From Martensiomyces pterosporus (Eukaryota; Kickxellomycota; Kickxellomycetes; Kickxellales; Kickxellaceae), in the NCBI GenBank assembly GCA_025201845.1, contig MU603967.1, positions 2,836 through 66,835 on the forward strand: 64,000 nucleotides of DNA, written 5' to 3'. This document shows, piece by piece, positions 17,387 through 40,647 of the stretch. Position 1 is the stretch's first letter. Every line of letters starts with the position of its first letter. The notes below the pieces were generated by a model. It made no database searches and was not told the DNA's origin. It saw nothing but the letters and a program-made list of their open reading frames with translations. Position numbers and translations under genes: made by a program.

Positions 17387-19255
17387 TCACTTGGGGTTGG
17401 TATTTTGGTTGCCCCAGTTCCACGACTGAGTGTTTCTGCGTCTGACGCCGTGCCCGACCCCACGCCCGCCACTACTATACCCTGCGCTGTTGTGGCTGAC
17501 TCGTCTTGGGGTGTGTCCAGTCGTTGACGATACAGTGTTAGACCTGGACAGTGGCTTGCGCACCTCCATGTGCGGCATGGGAGGGGGAGGGGGAGGGGTG
17601 GTGGGAGTTAGCCCCATCTGCTCTCTCTGCTGCTGATTCGGCACCACCACGTCCAGAGGCAGTGGGCACTCGGCTGCCATGTGGCCCTTCTGGCGGCACC
17701 TGTAGCAGAGTCTGGGCCGCCTGCGCCGAGCGTCCGACTGCACACGCAGCATGCTTGACAGGTGCTCCAGTTGGTCCGCCAGGCTATTGAGGTCTGCTGC
17801 AGACTTGACTTGCTGCTCCTCGCTCTCGCCTCCACTGCCCAAATGGGCTGGGTTGCTGCTTGCAGAGGGCGCCCGGTCGCCGGCTGACGGTGGATATGTC
17901 GACAGGGTAGTGCTTGACCGCAGCGAGTTCGTGCGGCCCTCCTCCACATCGTCGTCAATGTTTGTCAGGTCAAAGGTTCTTAACAGAGACGGCCCCTGCC
18001 TGGCTTGTGCTGCAGATGCCGACGACGCAGACCGCGGGAGTGTGGTATACCTGTTTTGTGCTGGTGCCCACGATTGCTCAGTAGGCGCCATCACCACCGA
18101 GCTTGCTCTCGCGTGGTTGGTTAGCGCATAGGAAGAGATGTTCTGGCGATGCAGCTGTGGATGGTGCGCACTTGCCGGTGCAGGAGGCGTCCACTGAGCA
18201 TTGGCGGATGGGACCGACCGATACCCGCCGCTGCTGTTCCTGCCAGATTGCATAACCCGGATAGAGCTGGCTGTGGAAGCGAGGTACCCAGCTTGGGCCT
18301 GGAGCTGGCCGTCGCTCTCCGCATATTCTGCATCATTATCGTCGAGCGAGAACGTCGCGCCGTTCGCCGTCGACTCCCACGCCAAAGTGCTCCCGCTGCC
18401 ATGGCCAGAGACTTGTGCATTTACCTCCACACCGTCCATATCATACTTGAGCGTGGGGATGGTGAATGTGCAGCTGAGCGACGAGTGCTCATCATCGCTA
18501 ATATTCTCATCATCTTCATCCAGCCCACCAAAATTCACACTGCACTTCTTTCCCGCCGTTCCAATAGCCAAATCGCCCATTTTGCCGGCAAGCGAGCCAT
18601 CCCGCATGTAATTGCCAGGCGACACTTGGCCGATGCGCGGATGGCCCACCTCAGACGAAGACGACAGGGGTGGCGAGAGCAGTGGCACCAGCTTGGCTAC
18701 TTTGTACATCTGATCGGGCGCCACAAACCCAATTGCCTTGTCGACGGAATTGGGGCGGCGCATCAGCACCCGCATCTTGGCCTTCTCGCTCCTCAGCCCC
18801 TGTGCAAAGAGCACGGCAAGCAGGTGCGTGTCCAGCGAGTGCGCCACCACGAGCGAGGACACTGCATCGATGAACCTTTGTGCATACTCAGACACGGTCT
18901 CTCCCGTCTGCTGCCTTATGCTCAGCAGATCCCGCAGGAGCCTGTCCTCTGCAAAGTTCTCCGAGTACTCAAACAGGAGCGTTGCTCGGAGGTTGTTCCA
19001 CGACGACGGGCCGACTACCTCTTCTCCCGCCAGCTTGCCCTTCTGCTGAGCTCCGCTCGCGCCCTCTGTGCTTGCTTTGGACAGGAGCAGCTTGCGCGCG
19101 GTGCCTTTTATCATGGTGCGCGCGTAGCAGTATGCCACCTGGCCCGACCACTTGAAGTGCTTGCGGAGGGACTCGACGCTCAGGACAAACTCGTCGACGT
19201 CCTCTTCCGGAAGGCCGCTGAAGGAAATGAAGGCTGGGCCCTCCTCTTCTTCCAT
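17387..19255 (-). CDS. solo Gag-like protein with CCHC zinc knuckle (probably domesticated retroelement gag)
   Basis: 622 residues. Residues about 8-195 read like a Ty3/gypsy-type Gag capsid domain: FISFSGLPEEDVDEFVLSVE, then WNNLRATLLFEYSENFAEDRL, LLSIRQQTGETVSEYAQRF and LLAVLFAQGLRSEKAKMRVL. A long Ser/Ala-rich, partly acidic linker follows. A CCHC zinc knuckle (CYRCRQKGHMAAEC, about 517-530) precedes a Pro-run and a basic, Gly-rich tail. The knuckle fits CX2CX4HX4C. There is no protease, reverse transcriptase or integrase on either side and I see no LTRs. The frame is intact and starts with an ATG at 19253-19255, divergent from RPP0. This suggests a host gene derived from gag; function unknown. 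Confidence 0.8.
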   Translation of the reverse strand: MEEEEGPAFISFSGLPEEDVDEFVLSVESLRKHFKWSGQVAYCYARTMIKGTARKLLLSKASTEGASGAQQKGKLAGEEVVGPSSWNNLRATLLFEYSENFAEDRLLRDLLSIRQQTGETVSEYAQRFIDAVSSLVVAHSLDTHLLAVLFAQGLRSEKAKMRVLMRRPNSVDKAIGFVAPDQMYKVAKLVPLLSPPLSSSSEVGHPRIGQVSPGNYMRDGSLAGKMGDLAIGTAGKKCSVNFGGLDEDDENISDDEHSSLSCTFTIPTLKYDMDGVEVNAQVSGHGSGSTLAWESTANGATFSLDDNDAEYAESDGQLQAQAGYLASTASSIRVMQSGRNSSGGYRSVPSANAQWTPPAPASAHHPQLHRQNISSYALTNHARASSVVMAPTEQSWAPAQNRYTTLPRSASSASAAQARQGPSLLRTFDLTNIDDDVEEGRTNSLRSSTTLSTYPPSAGDRAPSASSNPAHLGSGGESEEQQVKSAADLNSLADQLEHLSSMLRVQSDARRRRPRLCYRCRQKGHMAAECPLPLDVVVPNQQQREQMGLTPTTPPPPPPMPHMEVRKPLSRSNTVSSTTGHTPRRVSHNSAGYSSGGRGVGHGVRRRNTQSWNWGNQNTNPK

Positions 19256-19894: not shown

Positions 19895-21071
19895 ATGTCT
19901 AAGGGAGAGAAGAAGGCCGCCTACTTCACCAAGCTCGAGAACCTTCTCAGCTCGTACCAGTCGATCTTCATCGTCAACGTTGACAATGTCGGTTCGCAGC
20001 AGATGCACATGATCCGTCGTGCTCTGCGTGGCAACGCCGAGGTCCTCATGGGCAAGAACACCATGGTCCGCCGTGCTCTCCGCATTCTGTCGCAGAACAA
20101 CCCTGCTTTCGAGCAGCTTTCCCCCTTCGTCAAGGGCAACATTGGTTTCGTCTTCACCAACAGCGACCTCAAGGAGGTCCGCGAGAAGATTCTCGAGAAC
20201 CGTGTCGCTGCCCCTGCTCGTGCCGGAGCCATCGCCCCCGTCGATGTGTTCGTCCCTGCCGGTAACACTGGTATGGAGCCCGGACAGACCTCGTTCTTCC
20301 AGGCCCTCGGCATCCCCACCAAGATTGCCCGTGGTACCATTGAGATCACTCAGGACGTCCACCTTGTCCACACCGGCGACAAGGTCGGAGCTTCGGAGGC
20401 TACCCTGCTCAACAAGCTCAACATCTCGCCTTTCACCTACGGTATGACCGTCGTCCAGATCTACGACAACGGCACCACCTTCTCGCCCTCTGTCCTGGAC
20501 ATCACCGAGGATGACCTTATCAAGCGCCTCATGGAGGGTATCGCCGCCGTTGCTTCGATCTCGCTCGCTGCCAACTACCTCTCGCTCCCCGCTGTCCCCC
20601 ACCTCACCATCAACGTCTTCAAGGAGATCCTCGCCATCTCCGTTGCCACCGACTACACCATCGCTGCTGCTGAGTCGGTAAGTATCTTGTGCGAACACTG
20701 CAATTGCTGCTATGATGCTGTGGAAGCTGCTGCCCATGATGTCTTACACGTGAACAATCTATGAACCACCCATGATTTCCAAAAATACTCTAATTTTTTA
20801 CTGAGGGCATGCGCCTCCACGTCGCATCCAGGAAACTGCAGCGCCTTTGCAGCACGACAGATGACACTAATTTTGCAAGCGCATCTGCCTCTGCTGCGCC
20901 CTGTAATTCTAGATCAAGGAGCTCCTCGCCAACCCCGAGGCTCTCGCCGCCGCCGCTGCCGCTGCCTCTGCTGCTGTTGCCACCCCTGCTGGCGGTGCCG
21001 CTGCCGAGGAGAAGCCCGCTGAGGAGGAGGAGGAGTCCGATGACGACATGGGCTTCGGTCTCTTCGACTAA
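19895..21071 (+). CDS. RPP0: 60S acidic ribosomal protein P0
   Basis: Two exons, 19895-20677 and 20913-21071, give 313 residues, matching the family length. Exon 1 carries the uL10 rRNA-binding domain ([40 protein letters not shown]) and the P1/P2-docking region. Exon 2 supplies the Ala-rich hinge and the invariant tail [16 protein letters not shown], the anchor for translation GTPases. The splice junctions are phase 0: TCG|GTAAGT and TTCTAG|ATC, with a CACTAAT branch-like site near 20868. Without splicing the frame ends in junk at 20764. P0 is the base of the ribosomal stalk. The intron (235 bases) is unusually close to the 3' end and appears to host a snoRNA. Confidence 0.97.
20731..20809 (+). 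ncRNA. candidate intronic C/D box snoRNA, 18S rRNA guide
   Basis: Inside the RPP0 intron. A box C-like ATGATGT (20736-20742; consensus RTGATGA with a last-base change) and a box D CTGA (20801-20804) are bracketed by a perfect 5-bp terminal stem, TGCCC (20731-20735) with GGGCA (20805-20809). The span is 79 bases, a normal size. The sequence just upstream of box D, ACTCTAATTTTTT at 20787-20799, is the exact complement of AAAAAATTAGAGT, which I recall as part of a highly conserved 18S rRNA segment (GAAAAAATTAGAGTGTTC). The 5th base above box D would select the fourth A of that A-run for 2'-O-methylation. The yeast counterpart may be snR53 (18S Am796); that identity is from memory. Confidence 0.75.
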
Positions 21072-40574: not shown

Positions 40575-40647
40575 TGGAGATCCGGGGTTTCGATCCCCGT
40601 GCCTCTAACATGCAAAGCTAGTGCTCTACCGATTGAGCTAGATCCCC
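40575..40647 (-). tRNA. tRNA-Ala (anticodon UGC)
   Basis: A 73-base cloverleaf on the minus strand: acceptor GGGGATC paired with GATCTCC, D-arm GCTC/GAGC, anticodon stem CTAGC/GTTAG with loop TTTGCAT (anticodon TGC), variable AGGCA, T-stem CGGGG/CCCCG, discriminator A. Position 3:70 is a G-U pair, the alanine identity element. There is no intron. Oddity: the T-loop is ATCGAAA, with A54 and A60, a form normally linked to eukaryotic initiator tRNA. Confidence 0.95.

Follow-up and report, generated by a model that had tools for sequence, protein, structure and literature searches.

The Aspergillus fumigatus C/D box snoRNA Afu_298 (Rfam RF01507) was reportedly first described by Jochl in 2008. 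Another fungal C/D box snoRNA, snR53, guides A796 of yeast 18S rRNA according to the modification table of PMC8307265, which also assigns snR78 to 25S Um2421. The N. crassa counterpart of snR53 is CD11, listed with a D' guide for the A796 site in Table 1 of PMC2780460, a source in which position 796 of yeast 18S corresponds to 793 in N. crassa. The rule by which the methylated nucleotide is predicted, namely that it pairs with the fifth base upstream of box D (D+5), is stated in both of these sources.

The window analysed here is a 64,000-nucleotide stretch of the 17.4-Mb Martensiomyces pterosporus genome (contig C39), and it contains the gene for the ribosomal protein RPP0. Removal of positions 20678-20912 from the + strand yields a protein with 100% identity to the deposited 313-amino-acid RPP0 of this species (the second-best protein match was that of Dipsacomyces acuminosporus, with 92%; proteins of Linderina, Kickxella and Coemansia matched as well), so this 235-nt phase-0 intron, which runs from GTAAGT to TAG, agrees with the deposited gene model. 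Adjoining RPP0 on the minus strand (17387-19255) is a 622-codon frame with a CCHC zinc-knuckle-like stretch, which by eye resembles a retroelement Gag-type protein.

Within the intron lies the element whose parts are collected in Table 1. We put at roughly 0.85 the probability that it represents a C/D box snoRNA gene which lies inside this intron and acts, as proposed below, on the equivalent of yeast 18S A755. The candidate starts 53 nt from the 5' splice site; from its 3' end there are 61 nt to the adenosine of the likely branch site and 103 nt to the 3' splice site. Its distance to the 5' splice site fits the 41-60 nt given in PMC2780460 for most intronic snoRNAs of N. crassa.

Table 1. Features of the RPP0 intron and its snoRNA candidate, with two further candidates on contig C21. 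Positions refer to the window unless another sequence is named.
Feature	Position	Strand	Basis or remark
RPP0 intron (GTAAGT...TAG), phase 0	20678..20912	+	Spliced protein equals deposited RPP0
C/D box snoRNA candidate, 79 nt	20731..20809	+	Read directly from the letters
Terminal stem, 5' arm TGCCC	20731..20735	+	Direct reading
Box C ATGATGT (consensus RUGAUGA, final base U)	20736..20742	+	UGAUGU also in Rfam SNORD72 consensus
Possible box D' ATGA, weak	20761..20764	+	Opposite CUGA of snR78 consensus
Possible box C' ATGATTT, weak	20772..20778	+	Opposite UGAUUA of snR78 consensus
Guide, 16 bp with yeast 18S 752-767	20784..20799	+	15 Watson-Crick pairs and one G-U; -16.0 kcal/mol
Exact 13-nt guide match ACTCTAATTTTTT	20787-20799	+	Complement of 18S AAAAAATTAGAGT
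D+5 base facing 18S A755 (yeast numbering)	20796	+	A755 is the predicted 2'-O-methylated nucleotide
A directly before box D	20800	+	Direct reading
Box D CTGA	20801..20804	+	Direct reading
Terminal stem, 3' arm GGGCA	20805..20809	+	Direct reading
Likely branch site CTAAT of the RPP0 intron, A at 20870	20867..20871	+	Motif only
Two C/D snoRNA candidates, snR53-guide and snR67-like	L003 1441-1533 and 1746-1830 (contig C21)	minus	Neither at cut-off

The stem, both boxes and the 79-nt length reported in the initial annotation agree letter for letter with the sequence, and all parts of a snoRNA occur in the right order and spacing. Five Watson-Crick pairs form the terminal stem adjoining the boxes, a CUGA box D is found near the 3' end, and box C carries six of the seven letters of RUGAUGA. 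For the antisense element, members of this class are expected to have 10-21 bp in front of box D or D' and a target set by the D+5 rule; the candidate has a guide of 16 bp, its target letters being taken from yeast 18S. The possible internal boxes D' and C' are plausibly spaced and degenerate.

The last base of box C had been named as the weak point of the candidate. It does depart from the consensus, but this change is plausibly offset by the A before box D, giving a U-A pair in place of A-U. In the kink-turn of C/D snoRNAs, the base immediately preceding box D is the pairing partner of the last base of box C. The consensus of the Rfam family SNORD72 (RF00577) combines a UGAUGU box C with an ACUGA box D, the same altered letter pair as in the candidate, and so provides a precedent for this change. 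The altered base would also suit a decayed snoRNA, that is, a real architecture with a damaged box C whose RNA no longer accumulates, and so would the lack of any Rfam snoRNA family at cut-off. We regard such decay as improbable, since the stem, box D and the 16-bp guide are intact, no second copy with guide and boxes was found in the genome, and the seventh base of box C keeps a possible partner, as in SNORD72.

Several other signals were considered and set aside. Another possible box C in the same intron (ATGATGC, 20712-20718) allows an abutting stem of only two pairs to the same box D, or four if unpaired bases are allowed. A possible D' guide (20746-20761) pairs, apart from one mismatch, with 18S 759-769, a stretch that overlaps the target of the D guide; this pairing was rejected as evidence and may be due to chance, 384 of 400 shuffles having done equally well across the whole 18S and 70 of 2000 within 18S 740-780. 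Folding energy was likewise discarded as evidence, the candidate folding no better than its shuffles (z -0.42; 61 of 200 shuffles fold at least as well), which is usual for the C/D class. A promoter and terminator scan was also rejected, its design being for bacteria.

The initial annotation had described a 13-nt guide as the exact complement of a conserved 18S segment, and this was borne out against yeast 18S 752-764. Beyond these 13 nucleotides the pairing continues with U20786-G765, A20785-U766 and A20784-U767, which gives 16 pairs in all. The yeast 18S reference used (length 1800) carries the right base at 14/14 pseudouridine, 2/2 ac4C and 21/21 other modified positions of the table in PMC8307265; the pseudouridines checked include m1acp3-psi 1191, as well as 759 and 766 inside the 16-bp duplex. 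Three 18S patterns, of which two came from a single segment, had no match in the M. pterosporus assembly, and rDNA may be missing from it; the target letters are thus those of yeast and not of the fungus's own 18S.

By the D+5 rule, the nucleotide predicted to be methylated is the equivalent of A755. This position is absent from the yeast 18S modification table of PMC8307265, which places pseudouridines at 759, four bases after A755, and at 766, and no methylation there. Table 1 of PMC2780460, a list that its authors call not exhaustive, contains no N. crassa 18S site near 752, where the equivalent of A755 would be expected.

The target adenosine had been taken to fit the site of yeast snR53, and this part of the initial annotation did not hold: the D+5 base faces A755, 41 nt from the A796 that snR53 guides in the table of PMC8307265. 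A genome search for the A796 guide gave a single match without mismatches, on the minus strand of contig C21 (78350-78366), directly followed by ACTGA, with TTGATGA upstream and GGACTGA downstream. Approximately 210 nt upstream of this guide, on the same strand, is an snR67-like element (30 bits, E 0.0044 for 6,035 bases), which does not reach the gathering score of 55. In yeast, snR53 and snR67 are neighbours. The two C21 elements are further C/D snoRNA candidates in this genome, one snR53-like and one snR67-like, although the Rfam snoR53 model did not detect the former. It is hardly credible that the RPP0 candidate is the snR53 orthologue, even though it is a C/D candidate with its 18S site close to A796, and even though two Rfam searches revealed no other copy: the snoR53 model (RF00338), which matched 5 of 14 control genomes, gave none genome-wide at E 10, and L003, the sequence of the C21 pair, showed no snR53 family at E 1. 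The snoR53 model did not list the RPP0 site either, the exact A796 guide with its boxes lies on C21 beside the snR67-like element, and the guide and predicted target of the RPP0 candidate differ from those of snR53 whatever the C21 element is. The snR53 identity was therefore rejected.

The weight of the 18S match was assessed in the window together with L002-L023 (23 sequences, 270,059 nt, both strands; L001 was excluded as a duplicate of the window), using 30 passes of block-wise dinucleotide shuffles as the null, with box C 40-110 nt upstream. Nine CTGA sites had an 18S antisense stretch of 10 nt or more no further than two bases away, compared with 11.4 per shuffle pass, so short 18S guides alone are worthless as evidence and were rejected as such. 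Guides of at least 13 nt beside CTGA are expected 0.27 times per shuffle pass, and guides of at least 10 nt with a box C 0.53 times. A guide of at least 12 nt with a box C was found in 0/30 passes, as was a guide of at least 10 nt with both a box C and a stem of at least four pairs. The real data contained two sites with a guide of at least 12 nt, the RPP0 candidate and one on L003, a sequence that had been chosen for its guide. Together with the anatomy and the 16-bp pairing, these shuffles support the earlier proposal of a C/D box snoRNA with an 18S guide inside the RPP0 intron.

The combination is also unique at the genome scale. The 18-mer of guide and ACTGA, with up to two mismatches allowed, occurs once in the genome. 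Two copies of the 13-mer guide are present in the 17.4 Mb, the second of them on contig C163 and with no box D after it. The 17.4 Mb contain only one locus, the RPP0 site, at which the cores of box C and of the guide are combined with a box D; the combined search listed it twice because two box C cores precede the one box D.

The C163 copy runs on into T and C, as would be expected if CTAATTTTTT served an alternative 3' splice site as branch site and pyrimidine tract, with the 18S match being only a by-product; the branch-site-like CTAAT, moreover, occurs twice in the RPP0 intron, at 20790 and 20867. Even so, such an origin is very improbable. In 270 kb, both strands and the RPP0 copy included, CTAATTTTTT occurs only twice, indicating that this genome does not commonly use it as a splice signal. 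Of the four CAG sites that lie between CTAATTTTTT and the real 3' splice site, two are in frame (ends at 20831 and 20852) and run into a stop, at new codon 11 and new codon 4, respectively. The other two cause a frame shift: use of the site with its end at 20860 gives a different protein end, and for that at 20841 no stop was found within the translated stretch. Nor would alternative splicing account for the two boxes or for the stem adjoining them.

The boxes, stem, guide, register and host intron can be read in the letters themselves, and by analogy with the class we infer the steps from transcription through trimming and protein binding to methylation. The snoRNA would be transcribed and spliced out together with RPP0. 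Box C, box D and the short stem would then form a kink-turn, to which the snoRNP proteins Snu13/15.5K, Nop56, Nop58 and fibrillarin would bind, and these proteins would shield the snoRNA while exonucleases trim the debranched intron down to the stem. The guide is predicted to pair with the 18S pre-rRNA, so that fibrillarin could methylate the adenosine corresponding to yeast A755 at its 2'-OH.

With this candidate, a well-formed C/D snoRNA of the intronic type, for which an 18S target can be predicted by name, is added to the Kickxellomycotina, a group on which the literature collection searched contained no snoRNA paper. It also names an 18S site that possibly differs between fungi, which makes it testable whether such a mark is old and was lost or was gained twice. 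Tentatively, and at somewhat less than even odds, 18S Am755 could be an old fungal methylation set by a single guide lineage, which Kickxellomycotina (with its copy in the RPP0 intron) and Aspergillus would have retained, whereas S. cerevisiae and perhaps also Neurospora would have lost it.

Searched at the curated Rfam cut-offs, neither the window nor a further 203 kb of sequence gave a snoRNA match, which suggests, without proving it, that the Kickxellomycotina lineage holds guides that Rfam misses. The sole match in the window at gathering scores was a tRNA (40575-40647, minus strand, 60.6 bits), whose anticodon loop by eye suggests UGC, for alanine. A loose search of the intron (243 bases) gave four weak matches with E values of 0.56-9.3, all of them to C/D snoRNA families, on the + strand and at the candidate: snR78 (20.5 bits), Afu_298 (17.8 bits), SNORD72 (16.2 bits) and SNORD36 (15.6 bits). 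None of the four is significant alone. When 2,001 bases were searched, only snR78 stayed at the candidate (E 4.6), and sR53, an archaeal C/D model, had a better E value (0.58) on the opposite strand of the RPP0 exon, which indicates that scores at this level are noise. A search of 3,018 bases surrounding the site (L001) gave no Rfam match at E 1.

The boxes of snR78 (RF01176), the best-scoring of the weak matches, align end to end with those of the candidate, but the score is far below the cut-off of 48. SNORD72 has the same box letters, but in the alignment a different guide precedes its box D, and the score is to be read against a cut-off of 43. The families snR53 and snoR53Y (RF00338, RF01279) likewise belong to the C/D class with an 18S target in the same region, but their guide is for A796 and that of the candidate for A755. 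For Afu_298, a genome-wide search did not list the RPP0 site and gave another place at 15.4 bits; the same search matched 9 of 14 control genomes, none of them over the cut-off. In the intron, only model positions 70-93 of 93 align with the candidate, whose score remains below the gathering score of 40, and the consensus box D is aUGA where the candidate has CTGA. The guide ACUCUAAUUUUUU, however, is common to Afu_298 and the candidate and stands at an equal distance from the D box in both, so the predicted 18S adenosine is identical. The Afu_298 consensus has a C opposite U20786, so that the pair with G765 would be kept as G-C instead of G-U. This shows that a fungal snoRNA with such a guide has already been described, which does not imply orthology with the candidate. 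The RPP0-intron element looks like a new example of a known snoRNA class, with its predicted target corrected from A796 to A755.
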